64,000 nucleotides of DNA from Bacteroides cellulosilyticus (lineage in GTDB: Bacteria > Bacteroidota > Bacteroidia > Bacteroidales > Bacteroidaceae), in assembly GCF_020091405.1 (NCBI RefSeq), contig NZ_CP081903.1, positions 1,860,001 to 1,924,000 of the forward strand, written 5' to 3'. The notes under the pieces are model-generated. The model did not search any database. It was not told the origin of the DNA and saw only the letters and a list, made by a program, of their open reading frames with translations. Positions within the stretch are counted from its first letter, which is position 1; each line of letters starts with the position of its first letter. The translations under genes and the position numbers were made by a program. Below, in pieces: positions 2,083-43,850 of this stretch.

Positions 2083-2928
2083 TTATTGTTCGCAATTGCA
2101 GCATCCACATTCGTCTCCATGTTTATGCTCTGCCAGTATACGATGGGGTAGTGCTCCGTGTCCCAATAACTCTATCGGGCAATTGAAATTCCGTTCCAGC
2201 CACTCTTCGCTTACGCCCGTGTCGGGATGATAATCCAGTGTTTCATTCACGCAGGCAATGGACTTCACTTGTTGCAGTACTGTGCCGATGTCATGGCTGA
2301 CAAGAATGATGGCGCAGTCGTGGTTAATCTCTGCCAATAGTTCGTAAAGGCGGGCTTCGAAACGTTTGTCAATATATGTACTGGGTTCGTCGAGAACAAC
2401 GAGTTGAGGATCGGAGATGATGGCACGTCCCAGCAAAGCACGTTGCAATTGCCCACCGCTTAGTGCACCGATGGCACGTTCTTCCAATCCTTCCAATCCC
2501 ATGCGGGCAATCACTTGGCGGGCTTTCTTCCGATGTGATGCGGTGAAGCGTGAAATAAGTGACTTCTGTGAGCTGAGACCAGAAAGGATTACTTCTTCCA
2601 CTGTGATGGGGAATTTGCGATCTATGCTGTTGTACTGTGGCAGATATCCCATCTTTAGTGATAAGCGGTTAGTGGTTAGTGATAAGTACTGTGCTGTGCT
2701 TTCTTGTTTGTCACTAACCGCTAGCCGTTTATCACTATATAATATTTCTCCTCCCGTAGGTTTCAACAGACCGAGTATACATTTGATGAGAGTTGTTTTT
2801 CCGCCGCCATTAGGGCCGATGATGCCCAGAAAGTCCCGGTCGTAAACGGTGAGGTTTACGTTGCGTAATACCGTGCGGCTGTCATAGCCGGCACTGAGAT
2901 TCTTTATTTCAATAAGAGGCGTACCCAT
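2083..2928 (-). CDS. znuC: Metal (Zn/Mn) ABC transporter ATP-binding protein with an in-frame palindrome insertion
   Basis: 281-residue ABC ATPase that energises metal uptake. Visible motifs are Walker A GPNGGGKTT (residues 38-46), the Q-loop in LPQYN (about 98), signature SGGQ, Walker B LVVLDEPS and the switch histidine in VSHD. It follows znuA by 23 bp. Two oddities stand out. Residues about 65-91, between Walker A and the Q-loop, are encoded by an 80-bp palindromic repeat (2657-2736) that keeps the frame and replaces the usual short loop with SDKRLAVSDKQ and so on. The C-terminus ends in a His/Cys-rich tail (HKHGDECGCCNCEQ) that looks metal-binding. No permease (znuB) gene is adjacent, so the membrane subunit must be encoded elsewhere. 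Family assignment is firm; the exact metal is inferred from znuA. Confidence 0.92.
   Translation of the reverse strand: MGTPLIEIKNLSAGYDSRTVLRNVNLTVYDRDFLGIIGPNGGGKTTLIKCILGLLKPTGGEILYSDKRLAVSDKQESTAQYLSLTTNRLSLKMGYLPQYNSIDRKFPITVEEVILSGLSSQKSLISRFTASHRKKARQVIARMGLEGLEERAIGALSGGQLQRALLGRAIISDPQLVVLDEPSTYIDKRFEARLYELLAEINHDCAIILVSHDIGTVLQQVKSIACVNETLDYHPDTGVSEEWLERNFNCPIELLGHGALPHRILAEHKHGDECGCCNCEQ
2657..2736. repeat. Palindromic element R1 inside znuC
   Basis: The left arm starts AGTGATAAGCGGTTAGTGG and the right arm, reverse-complemented, starts AGTGATAAACGGCTAGCGG. About 28 bp pair with four differences, all of which are G-T wobbles when the plus strand folds. Each arm is built from the related words GTGATAA and GGTTAGTGATAA. 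The loop contains TGCTGTGC, a relative of the GGCTGCGC word in other elements of this window. It lies wholly within coding sequence and contains no stop in the znuC frame. Confidence 0.85.
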
Positions 2929-2951
2929 TTGTTTACTGCTTGACGATGTCT

Positions 2952-3884
2952 TTAGTTCTTAACGACCAATTCCTTGGCAATGTTCAACATTTCTTCTTCC
3001 CAATCGTAAGAAAGCGGGTTGATAGGGATTACCTTCGTTCCCGTCTGTTTGGCAATAATCTCTGCATTGCGGCGGTCAAATTCAGGTTGCACGAAGATAA
3101 CACGGACTTTCTCCTTTTTACAAGTGTCTATCAGATTCTTGAGGTGGGAGGGAGAAGGCTCTTTACCATTTTCTTCGATGGAAATCTGATGCAAGCCGTA
3201 GTCGCGGGCAAAGTAAGATAATGCCGGATGATAAATCATGAAAGCACGGTCCGCATTGGGGGTCGACAGCATGTGACAAATAAGGCTATCGGTATGTTCA
3301 ATCTGGTTGCAGAGACTTTTGTAACGCTCCATATAGACTTCTTCATTGCCTTTGTCGATGGCGCACAGTGCATTTACGATATTTCCGGCAATAATCTGTG
3401 CATTATAGGCAGAACTCCAAACGTGCGGTTCCACACCAAAAAGATGCTGATGCTCATCGTCTTGGATGGAATCGTGGGCGTGAGGTTCACCGGCATCGTG
3501 ATGATGATGGGCGTGTGAGGAATCATAAATCAGGTCGATGCCGCGGGAAGTATCGAAGAATTGCAGGTGCGGAGCGTTATCCGTCAGCTTGTCCATCCAG
3601 GTTTGTTCAAAACCGATGTAGCCGATCCGGAAGTAGGCTTTGCTTTTGGCAAGATCTACGAGTTGCTGGGGGGTAGGATCGTAGGTTTCCGGACTACTCC
3701 CTTTGGGAACCATGCTGATAACGTTGAAGTTATCGCCTGCAATGGCTTCGGTGAAATAGCGTAATGGCTCAATAGTGACGGTGATGACGGGTTTATCGCC
3801 TTCACTCTTATTATTCTGGACGCTGCTGTTCTTGCAGGATGCGGCGAGCAAAGCAGCGAGGATGTACAGGAATGTTCGTTTCAT
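2952..3884 (-). CDS. znuA: Metal-binding lipoprotein of a zinc/manganese ABC transporter
   Basis: 310-residue cluster A-I solute-binding protein. It begins with a lipoprotein signal (LLAASC, lipobox cysteine about residue 17), so it is probably membrane-anchored in the periplasm. A histidine-rich loop (SSHAHHHHDAGEPHAH, then DDEHQH) lies before the conserved FGVEPHVW motif; such loops are typical of zinc-specific ZnuA. Other conserved segments are VPKGSSPETYDPTP, the MIYHPALSYFARDYGL region and IFVQPEFD. It sits 34 bp downstream of mnmD and 23 bp upstream of znuC, in what looks like one transcript. Zinc is more likely than manganese because of the loop, but this is inferred. Confidence 0.92.
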   Translation of the reverse strand: MKRTFLYILAALLAASCKNSSVQNNKSEGDKPVITVTIEPLRYFTEAIAGDNFNVISMVPKGSSPETYDPTPQQLVDLAKSKAYFRIGYIGFEQTWMDKLTDNAPHLQFFDTSRGIDLIYDSSHAHHHHDAGEPHAHDSIQDDEHQHLFGVEPHVWSSAYNAQIIAGNIVNALCAIDKGNEEVYMERYKSLCNQIEHTDSLICHMLSTPNADRAFMIYHPALSYFARDYGLHQISIEENGKEPSPSHLKNLIDTCKKEKVRVIFVQPEFDRRNAEIIAKQTGTKVIPINPLSYDWEEEMLNIAKELVVKN

Positions 3885-3918
3885 TATTATATTTATGGTT
3901 TTTATAATTGATTACTCT

Positions 3919-4647
3919 TTATGGTTTCTCTTTCGTTGCCCTCAGTATCTCCCGCTTTCCCCCCGGAGGTCCCGGAAGGCGCTCCACACGGAAGCCCACA
4001 GCTTGCAACATACGGCGGATGACACCTTTGGCGCAATACGTCGTCAATATTCCCCCTGTATTCATATAAACGTAAAGAGAGCGAAATAATTGCTCGTTCC
4101 ACATTTCTGGTTGCTTTTCAGGGGCGAAAGCATCGAAGTAAACGAGATCAGGAAAAGTATTAGGTATTAAGTGTGAAGTATTAGGTATTAGGTGTGAGGT
4201 ATTGGTATTTTGTTCACTTCGAATACTTAATACTTCATACTTCATACTTATATTCGCATCTGTCTTTATCTTCCGCAGAGTGAAGTGCGGGGATATTTTT
4301 ACGTCTTCTTCCCACGGGGCGGTGTGCAGCTGCTTGAACAGCGGGTTATTACTATATCCTAGTGCATCGACTTCTTCCCAGGCGAGGGGATAGAGCTCGA
4401 TACCGGTATAATGTACGGGACGCGCGTCCTGTTCGGCAGCTTCCAGTGTGAGCAAGGCATTCAGTCCGGTGCCGAAGCCTATCTCAAGAACGTGCGGTTG
4501 CGGTGCGGCAGAGGCTTTCAGGCCCATGTCGATAAAGATATGCTGCGACTCTGTACGCGCCCCTTTCACCGAATGATAATGTTCATCCAGTTCGGGCACA
4601 AACAGTGTTGCGCTTCCATCTTCCGTACGTTCTATAATTCGTTTCAT
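3919..4647 (-). CDS. mnmD: MnmD-like tRNA (5-methylaminomethyl-2-thiouridine) methyltransferase with an in-frame palindrome insertion
   Basis: 242-residue stand-alone homologue of the methyltransferase half of MnmC, which methylates the wobble uridine side chain of tRNAs reading split-box codons. The SAM site is VLEIGFGTGLNALLTL, and the family motif YFDAFAPEKQPEMW is followed by GGILTTYCAKGVIRRML. Residues about 133-165, between HFTLRKIKTD and the YFDAF motif, are encoded by a palindromic repeat at 4155-4251 that yields NTSHLIPNTSHLIPNT. Family members normally have a short linker there. Three bases separate it from the DedA-like gene upstream. Assignment is strong; whether the insertion affects activity is unknown. 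Confidence 0.9.
   Translation of the reverse strand: MKRIIERTEDGSATLFVPELDEHYHSVKGARTESQHIFIDMGLKASAAPQPHVLEIGFGTGLNALLTLEAAEQDARPVHYTGIELYPLAWEEVDALGYSNNPLFKQLHTAPWEEDVKISPHFTLRKIKTDANISMKYEVLSIRSEQNTNTSHLIPNTSHLIPNTFPDLVYFDAFAPEKQPEMWNEQLFRSLYVYMNTGGILTTYCAKGVIRRMLQAVGFRVERLPGPPGGKREILRATKEKP
4155..4251. repeat. Palindromic element R2 inside mnmD
   Basis: The left arm consists of repeated words (AAGTATTAGGTATTAAGTGT, then a near copy) and the right arm is their imperfect reverse complement (TACTTAATACTTCATACTTC). Most arm mismatches are G-T wobbles on the plus strand. The element is in frame with mnmD and adds roughly 32 residues, including a tandem NTSHLIP peptide. Confidence 0.82.
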
Positions 4648-14123: not shown

Positions 14124-14471
14124 AATATAACTTAATTTAAGGTTCGCAGGCAGAAATATGTTCATTCCTGTGCAGTTGAGCTATATTCCCATTAGGACTG
14201 AACTGGTGTCCCACTACGGCTAATCTTAGTGGGACACCAAGTACACTATCACACAGGAAGTTATGTTCTTCAGTTTACTCCTATATAATGCATATCGGTA
14301 TAGAAATGAGGTAAATGATTTTAGCCTATGTATTCAATCTCTTAGACGCAGATGACACGGATTTAAAGGCTGCGCTGTCACATCAATAAATAAAAAATCT
14401 GCGTCATCCGTGTCATCCGCGTCTAAAAAATAAATCATCACTTCATTCAAAACCGTATAGAAATAAACATA
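14124..14471. other. Intergenic region with two hairpins and no gene
   Basis: 348 bp between the convergent cysK and LruC-type genes. It holds a perfect 13-bp inverted repeat (14204-14216 with 14227-14239, TGGTGTCCCACTA) without a U-tract, and the palindromic element R6. No coding potential is seen. Confidence 0.7.
14342..14426. repeat. Palindromic element R6
   Basis: Left arm TTAGACGCAGATGACACGGA pairs with the right arm (14406-14426) with one difference in 21. GGCTGCGC occurs at 14368-14375 just inside the left arm. It lies between the convergent cysK and LruC-type genes, where it might also terminate transcription. Confidence 0.85.
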
Positions 14472-18013: not shown

Positions 18014-18085
18014 AGCTACAGACTACGAGCTACAAGTGCCTTTCGGAATATAGCGCAGCTACTTGTAGCTTGTAGCCGGTAGCTC
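18014..18085. repeat. Palindromic element R5 in the leader of the YczE-like gene
   Basis: Left arm CAGCTACAGACTACGAGCTA and right-arm complement GAGCTACCGGCTACAAGCTA; 21 of 25 positions pair. The centre (GTGCCTTTCGGAA...ATAGCGCAGCT) is the inverse of the centre of R8 at 41950, so R5 and R8 are one family in opposite orientations. GCGCAGCT is a one-base variant of the shared word. Confidence 0.85.
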
Positions 18086-19095: not shown

Positions 19096-19177
19096 AGGCG
19101 CGGATTACGCGGAATTACACGGATTTCTTTCATTAATCAACAACCCTTGATCCGTGTATTCAGCGTAATCCGCGCCT
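19096..19177. repeat. Palindromic element R7 between convergent genes
   Basis: Left arm AGGCGCGGATTACGCGGAAT and right arm (19150-19177) pair over 28 bp with one mismatch and one bulge. It fills the 97-bp gap between the AraC-type and rnr stop codons and may terminate both transcripts; TTTTA follows on the plus strand. The loop lacks GGCTGCGC. Confidence 0.85.
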
Positions 19178-41949: not shown

Positions 41950-42029
41950 AGCTACGAGCTACGAGTTACAGGCTACAAGTGGCTGCGCTATGTTCCGAAA
42001 GGCACTCGTGGCTTGTAACTCGTAGCTCA
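41950..42029. repeat. Palindromic element R8
   Basis: Left arm GAGCTACGAGTTACAGGCTA pairs with the right arm (ending CGTAGCTC at 42028) with four differences in about 27. GGCTGCGC lies at 41981-41988. The centre matches R5 (18014-18085) in reverse orientation. A long reading frame into the U32 gene passes through it but starts before the real ATG. Confidence 0.88.
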
Positions 42030-43761: not shown

Positions 43762-43850
43762 TCACCACAGAGTAACACTGAGTCTCACAGAGGTAATTAT
43801 TCACATTAAAAAAATAAAACTCTGTGAGACTCAGTGTTACTCTGTGGTGA
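43762..43850. repeat. Palindromic element R9, perfect 31-bp inverted repeat
   Basis: 43762-43792 (TCACCACAGAGTAACACTGA...) is exactly reverse-complementary to 43820-43850, with a 27-base AT-rich loop. It sits between the thioesterase stop and the dprA start. No GGCTGCGC. Confidence 0.92.

Follow-up and report, generated by a model that had tools for sequence, protein, structure and literature searches.

Short palindromes present in many copies between genes are familiar from bacteria as the REP, BIME and REPIN sequences, with their RAYT transposase. Palindromic elements that also sit in frame within genes are best known from Rickettsia: the Rickettsia palindromic elements (RPEs), of 105–146 bp and several families, lie both between genes and in frame within genes, and guanylate kinase, the only carrier protein tested, is translated from its gene and is an active enzyme of altered affinity (PMC2229807, PMC10969869; papers are cited here by PMC number, each for a part of its text). 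Heptamer tandem repeats (TAACTGA) of Beggiatoaceae, Cyanobacteria and Bacteroidetes are mostly intergenic, with some inside reading frames (PMC4679880), and in mitochondrial genes of Nematomorpha inverted repeats lie inside translated genes, with both arms encoding conserved residues (PMC6649704). Here, two palindromes, R1 and R2, are described from a 64,000-nucleotide stretch of Bacteroides cellulosilyticus (contig NZ_CP081903.1, positions 1,860,001–1,924,000; the whole stretch is called the window), where they lie within znuC and mnmD, respectively. On balance they are probably members of a Bacteroides class of small non-autonomous palindromic repeats that are copied between loci, tolerated in protein loops and turning over in place. 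No description of this class in Bacteroides was found in the open-access literature, outside which most subscription papers fall.

Two heptad-armed palindromes within znuC and mnmD

The two elements and the genes around them are, in window coordinates:

2083–2928, minus strand: znuC, metal ABC transporter ATPase (281 amino acids, PF00005), carries R1
2656–2737, no strand: R1, tandem-heptad palindrome of the AGTGRTT family, arms of 30 bp and loop of 22 nt
2686–2707, no strand: R1 loop, compared by eye with that of genome G117
2952–3884, minus strand: znuA (PF01297), between both carrier genes
3919–4647, minus strand: mnmD, MnmC2-type tRNA methyltransferase (242 amino acids, NCBIfam MnmC2), carries R2
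about 4155–4250, no strand: R2, tandem-heptad palindrome of the AAGTATT/AAGTATG family

An earlier note on this DNA had placed both palindromes within coding sequence, with the frame kept and no stop codon, and the positions of the open reading frames (ORFs), the arms and the folding confirmed this: both elements are in frame, stop-free and wholly within minus-strand open frames. The arms of R1 (2656–2685 and 2708–2737; 30 nt each) are 87% complementary and those of R2 (4161–4197 and 4214–4250; 37 nt each) 81%. Their repeat unit is a heptad, about AGTGRTT in R1 and about AGTATTA (AAGTATT/AAGTATG-like) in R2, laid out as a direct array in one arm and as its reverse complement in the other. To call the two elements unrelated, as had been done, was thus too strong, for they are heptad-armed members of one class. 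Their stem scores were equalled in none of 100 letter shuffles, and on either strand their RNA folds outdid every one of 200 dinucleotide shuffles (R1, z of −11.1 on the plus and −6.5 on the minus strand; R2, −8.4 and −6.5, respectively). As compared by eye, the loop of R1 is apparently a decayed form of the G117 loop GCTGCGCTGTGCCCTCTTGC (loop identity of 0.73).

The number of added residues had been put at about 27–32, which agrees with the span of the palindromes (about 27–30 codons) but not with the net gain over a typical loop, which is only about 15–19 residues: by the loop boundaries used, the carrier loops measure 36 residues in ZnuC and 43 in MnmD, and the median loop is about 21 residues for znuC (72 genomes) and about 24 for mnmD (56 genomes).

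Both carrier genes have a single match in the source genome (at E≤1e-60 for znuC and E≤1e-30 for mnmD). MnmD scores above the NCBIfam MnmC2 cut-off and the ZnuC product below the NCBIfam ZnuC cut-off, so that the name ZnuC rests on context, namely an ABC ATPase gene (PF00005) that adjoins the gene of ZnuA (PF01297). Outside the inserts, the ratio of nonsynonymous to synonymous divergence (dN/dS) is 0.015–0.033 for znuC against four named relatives (the fifth, UBA939, yielded no value) and 0.037–0.10 for mnmD against five; both genes are under purifying selection and therefore in use. In AlphaFold2 models built from 35-sequence alignments, the inserts of both proteins were placed between core strands at low confidence. 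For ZnuC, residues 67–88 have a predicted local distance difference test score (pLDDT) below 50, as has the C-terminus (model mean 74); for MnmD, the mean pLDDT is 70 at residues 141–150 and 55 at 151–160, versus 89 overall, with a helix predicted at 131–147. R1 and R2 would be translated as a flexible loop in each protein.

Synonymous divergence (dS) of the source genome from the records L265 (B. timonensis) and L266 (B. cellulosilyticus) is 0.04–0.06 in mnmD versus 0.22–0.27 in znuC, 1 kb away, which suggests a recombination breakpoint between the two genes.

The class in the source genome and its loop core

The source genome was surveyed by a census of 1.044 of its 6.94 Mb, in three sampled stretches of which one contains the window, with ORFs of at least 90 codons called mechanically and arm families assigned by eye. 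The census yielded 84 stems of at least 20 bp; a single 200-kb shuffled control gave no stem of comparable strength. In 43 of the 84 the arms are significantly periodic (29 with period 7, 7 with period 11, 4 with period 10, 2 with period 8 and 1 with period 9). Although ORFs cover 86–90% of the sequence, 41 of the 43 periodic palindromes lie outside called ORFs, the exceptions being R1 and R2. Simple scaling of the census would imply a few hundred elements per genome. The other 41 strong stems have no clear period, and three of these are inside ORFs.

Searches of the source genome with R1 and R2 returned 55 loci, a number in which one place is often counted more than once; 17 distinct palindromes were resolved from them, with only R1 and R2 in a long open frame. 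R2 alone matched 16 further places (E<0.001; hits on the two strands at one place taken as a single match). Further copies of the arm sequences, anticipated in the earlier note, are thus present.

Many of the 7-mer members, across arm families, have a loop core in common, GGCTGCGCTRTG, which has 12 matches in the source genome versus none for the reversed pattern. For 11 of the 12, the match falls within the loop region of a palindrome of this kind; the arms are 7-mers of the GCTACAA and AATGAAG families in 10 cases and an apparent 9-mer repeat in the other. In the census, CTGCGC/GCGCAG was found in or beside the loop of 18 of the 29 period-7 palindromes, versus 3 of the 55 other stems. Across the genus, the core is present in 59 of 119 genomes (reversed control, 0 to 3 per genome), with the highest counts in G115 (44), G038 (26), G043 (25), G057 (17) and G097 (17), and it was found in 33 of 149 genomes drawn from the order, at one to three copies each except in the source genome.

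Copies of the AGTGATT family in frame were sought by a peptide probe in 26 genomes. Among the matches listed, 64 places were distinguished, 50 crossed by stop codons and 14 stop-free, R1 included; more in-frame copies may therefore exist, and one may be that at G005:C14:69398, which is stop-free in a 172-codon frame. Genome G005 gave 35 AGTGATT-type matches on several contigs, most of them crossed by stops, and seems to be rich in AGTGATT arrays.

Turnover at shared sites

For the genus comparison, 77 of 119 genomes were examined, and the loop was extracted by sequence anchors in 72 for znuC and 56 for mnmD. A stem score of at least 12 was reached by 5 of the 72 znuC loops and 12 of the 56 mnmD loops. 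A second set comprised the window and the best 80 of 408 named records, 81 in all. For each gene 69 of these gave a readable loop, and 5 znuC and 8 mnmD loops, window included, reached that score, the latter including B. oleiciplenus, B. clarus, B. faecis, B. finegoldii and B. timonensis.

One mnmD loop position hosts palindromes of five arm families, as judged by eye: (i) AAGTATT, in the source genome; (ii) AGTGATT, in G117, G043, G035 and G031, short in G042 and worn in G022; (iii) AGAGTTG/AGAATGG, in G106, G085, G062, G012 and G092, and weak in G110; (iv) AATGGAT, in G001 and weak in G090; (v) AATGAAG, in G086 and weak in G082. In G057 and G047, apparently one arm of an AATGAAG element is left. 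At the znuC site, the R1 family is also present in G117, G043 and G035, and shortened in G057. A tree was built from the parts outside the loops for 45 of the 56 mnmD genomes (11, among them four of the six AGAGTTG-family genomes, were dropped for too little ZnuC). On it the seven mnmD loop states require no fewer than 12 changes, against a possible minimum of 6 and a mean of 15.5 after shuffling, and one well-supported clade, of the source genome, G042, G086 and G057, has three families plus one scar. Over the 197 mnmD codons outside the loop, the source genome differs from L266 at 9 nt and from L265 at 8 nt; despite these near-identical flanks, their loops are of different arm families. The palindromes had been predicted to be missing from most orthologues and to be flanked by clean junctions. 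The first part stood, in that the orthologues mostly have no palindrome or a different one; the second did not, as close sisters have scars, short loops or other elements at both sites and no clean empty site was obtained for znuC or mnmD.

Two side observations concern mnmD. The MnmD proteins of G085, G012 and G080 have a second variable insertion point about 25–30 residues before the first (alignment columns about 104–124), one example of its peptide being DEQVTVNGEQQ; and in an uncultured Bacteroides record (L297:3501–4154) the mnmD match translates with an internal stop codon.

Three intergenic palindromes of the window bear on turnover between genes:

18014–18084, no strand: heptad palindrome of the GCTACAA family with core-like loop ATAGCGCAGCT, from the census; the same element is in G057
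41956–42028, no strand: heptad palindrome of the GCTACAA family with core GGCTGCGCTATG
43762–43850, no strand: 10-mer palindrome; site empty in G057, loop inverted in G042

Among 31 periodic palindromes of the source genome, eight had no usable synteny with G057, for which a looser period test than that of the census was used. Of the 23 compared, 16 sites have the same element, 4 another palindrome (one of them with flanks of only 70–76% identity), 2 are empty or short (one of them the scarred R2 site) and the last, that of R1, has other sequence, since R1 is shortened in G057 and was too changed to score. In the reverse test, the 16 G057 elements with synteny comprised 12 same, 3 with another palindrome (one of them of the same family, below the similarity cut-off) and 1 empty or short. 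For example, the spacer at source position 2008637 holds an AATGAAG element, an AGTGATT element in G117 and another sequence in G042, and that at window position 41956 (source 1901956) holds a GCTACAA element, whose family is kept in G042, with a 9-mer in G057 and an 11-mer in G117. The 43762–43850 site is clean and empty in G057, where it reads CTCTAAAATATAACC, and in the source genome the 8-bp TAAAATAT flanks the element left and right; at G117 1203308, a heptad element interrupts a sequence that in G057 is a TAATG stop-start overlap, with no visible duplication.

The loops of resident elements also change orientation. In 23 comparisons over 18 source elements (one without a loop, and the row for 2008637 in G117 really a different family), the loop was inverted between kept arms in three elements, two clear and one less so: at 2170426 the inverted identity is 0.93 versus 0.66 forward, with the inverted loops differing at one base, at 1903762 it is 0.96 versus 0.56 and at 2139610, the less clear case, 0.78 versus 0.57. 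Such inversions would result from recombination between the arms or from template switching, of which spacer inversion is, together with arm homogenisation, a described product at inverted repeats (PMC8604942). In the four long znuC elements, which are more distant from one another, 4 of 32 pair positions have different Watson–Crick pairs with both sides changed, two of which are A.C in other genomes.

Other palindromes were seen in passing. In the window, an intergenic one at 14337–14431 has GGCTGCGCTGTCAC in its loop and weakly 9-mer arms and recurs unchanged at the corresponding site of G057, and a 9-mer palindrome of the GCGGATTACGCGG type at 19096–19177 is kept in G057 and G042. In G117, C2:1280948–1281151 (L128) is a 204-bp composite palindrome with 57-nt arms and outer ends GCGCAGC/GCTGCGC, and C2:1298557–1298637 (L129) an 11-mer (CTCCGTA) palindrome.

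Competing explanations and known systems

The explanation put forward at the outset, a class of repeats copied between loci, would work as follows. An element of about 70–150 bp consists of short tandem units (mostly 7 bp), a loop often with the core, and the units in reverse complement. Copies would reach new sites from other loci by copying or insertion, and would persist almost exclusively in intergenic sequence, with a few in protein loops that can take up extra residues, if frame and stops permit. In a resident element the arms would recombine or template-switch with each other, with the loop inversions seen here as the outcome; units are gained or lost, the element erodes, and over the divergence of sister species other members of the class take its place. 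In znuC and mnmD the element would yield a flexible loop on translation, while mismatches loosening the hairpin of the mRNA would build up.

The last step draws on the arm mismatches. All four in R1, and three of four in the best 29-bp arms of R2, are G-T on the plus strand. In 24 coding palindromes chosen by hand (7 of znuC and 17 of mnmD, with G055, of score 8, left out), the mRNA-strand mismatches are 45 A.C and 10 G.U; seven of the 24 were taken with a stem score below 12 (G078 and G057 for znuC; G110, G082, G042, G090 and G022 for mnmD). Minus shared mismatches, the counts are 31 and 10 (binomial p=0.0015). The 28 source copies between co-directional genes have 29 A.C and 30 G.U on the mRNA strand (coding versus intergenic, Fisher p=0.012), and the periodic copies outside ORFs have 47 G-T versus 44 A-C on the plus strand. 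The mismatch asymmetry, from which (as plus-strand G-T) the earlier note had argued for a structural constraint on spread, is thus seen in coding copies but absent between genes, and such a constraint is unsupported. As the asymmetry is found in coding copies only, it points to the carrier genes being translated. Read most simply, selection there favours, or at least tolerates better, mutations by which the mRNA hairpin is opened, in which case selection would be its cause, and codon constraints could contribute. A leading-strand mutation effect (GC skew on the plus strand of the window is positive) and a strand property of the element were both dropped in view of the extragenic counts.

Several observations weigh against copying between loci and the steps attached to it. 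In-frame insertion is rare, with only R1 and R2 of the 43 periodic palindromes inside called ORFs. Outside the source genome, the core lay within a palindrome at only 6 of the 29 genus loci inspected (one per genome; G115, G038, G043 and G097 were outside this sample) and at none of 28 loci inspected outside the genus (one per genome). Of the two clean filled–empty pairs, the 10-mer has a direct repeat and the heptad at G117 1203308 has none. Two-sided pair changes between sisters number 4 versus 51 one-sided in 622 pairs (the 2008637 row of G117 supplies 2 and 11 of these, respectively), so that pairing of the arms is not strongly maintained on a short time scale. At the level of elements, the mismatch asymmetry is not significant (12 A.C-leaning versus 4 G.U-leaning; sign p=0.077), and 7 of the 31 A.C mismatches come from one element (G082). 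Finally, no enzyme was identified: an autonomous partner was sought only through PF01797 (Y1_Tnp), which has no match in the source genome and has control matches in 5 of 14 genomes. The znuC copy of G117 had no match in phage and plasmid collections, where the low-complexity filter of BLAST may hide matches.

Among the alternatives, local birth would need no movement between loci: replication slippage would multiply the short units and template switching would write their reverse complement on the spot. Tandem units and loop inversions are both expected from slippage plus inverted-repeat template switching (PMC8604942, PMC8794818), and element types do switch at one site with flanks nearly unchanged; yet local birth predicts neither the recurrence of the R1 and R2 heptads, together, at more than 20 separate places nor one 12-nt core common to several arm families at unrelated loci, and we regard it as rather unlikely. 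More speculative, and in our view improbable, is a self-rewriting hairpin system, in which a dedicated enzyme would recognise the core plus hairpin and write new tandem-unit arms, so that the hairpins at fixed sites, in-frame ones included, would give way wholesale to unrelated ones on a sister-species or strain time scale; such a system, if real, would supply new peptide loops to conserved proteins.

Functional hairpins are improbable to much the same degree. Here the stem would be needed for processing or stability of operon mRNA, or for termination, and lost stems would be replaced under selection, as might befit the many intergenic copies that lie within a few bases of a start or stop codon and the several sites with a different palindrome in a sister genome. 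The contexts of the 41 extragenic palindromes are mixed, however (13 between two plus-strand genes, 15 between two minus-strand genes, 7 convergent and 6 divergent), and so differ from the placement expected of intrinsic terminators, downstream of genes and not in divergent spacers; moreover, empty sites exist, mRNA-strand mismatches of the coding copies are more often A.C than G.U, and no Rfam match was found in the four sources searched. Ancestral loops turned palindromic by chance or codon bias are very improbable: both loops do differ in length and sequence between genomes of the genus even where no palindrome is present, but R1 and R2 were unmatched in the letter and dinucleotide shuffles, several unrelated palindromes occupy one position, matching elements lie elsewhere in the genome, and none of the 72 znuC and 56 mnmD orthologues has the same residues without the palindromy, so that this explanation was rejected and the original proposal of inserted elements upheld.

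Beyond that proposal, the present analysis adds same-site replacement by different families, loop inversion and the shared core. With several families swapping at one gene position between sister species, how such elements move or rewrite themselves and feed peptide into conserved proteins becomes testable, and the loop core, empty sites and loop inversions are handles for finding the enzyme. For annotation, these loops are to be read as recent insertions and not as conserved domains.

The elements resemble REP, BIME and REPIN sequences as short many-copy intergenic palindromes, but their arms are tandem heptads, and REPIN/RAYT was ruled out by the lack of any PF01797 match in the source genome. 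A known Rfam RNA was likewise ruled out for the four sources searched (124 kb, including the whole window), with no match above the gathering score. With TAACTGA/STRR-type repeats they share tandem units of 7 bp (29 of the 43 periodic palindromes), but there the arrays are direct, whereas here two head-to-head arrays around a loop form a hairpin. Their loop inversions are like those of inverted-repeat template switching or quasipalindrome mutation (PMC8604942), which is a mutation process and not an element, and alone leaves the shared core and the copy number unexplained; arm homogenisation, moreover, is weak here. The coding palindromes of Nematomorpha are likewise inverted repeats within genes, whereas the insert here is an added loop. 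As to a target-site duplication of the kind made by a miniature inverted-repeat transposable element, the two pairs compared disagree: an 8-bp repeat flanks 43762–43850, judged against the empty site of G057, and none is visible at G117 1203308. Closest in kind, on our best reading, are the RPEs, compared here by description only: like them, the present palindromes occur both between genes (41 outside ORFs) and in frame (two), but their arms are tandem units of 7–11 bp, often around a shared loop core, all but two of the 43 are outside called ORFs, families swap at one position between sister species, and loops invert. The palindromes of Bacteroides, a common gut genus, would thus be a second class of in-frame palindromic element with a different anatomy.

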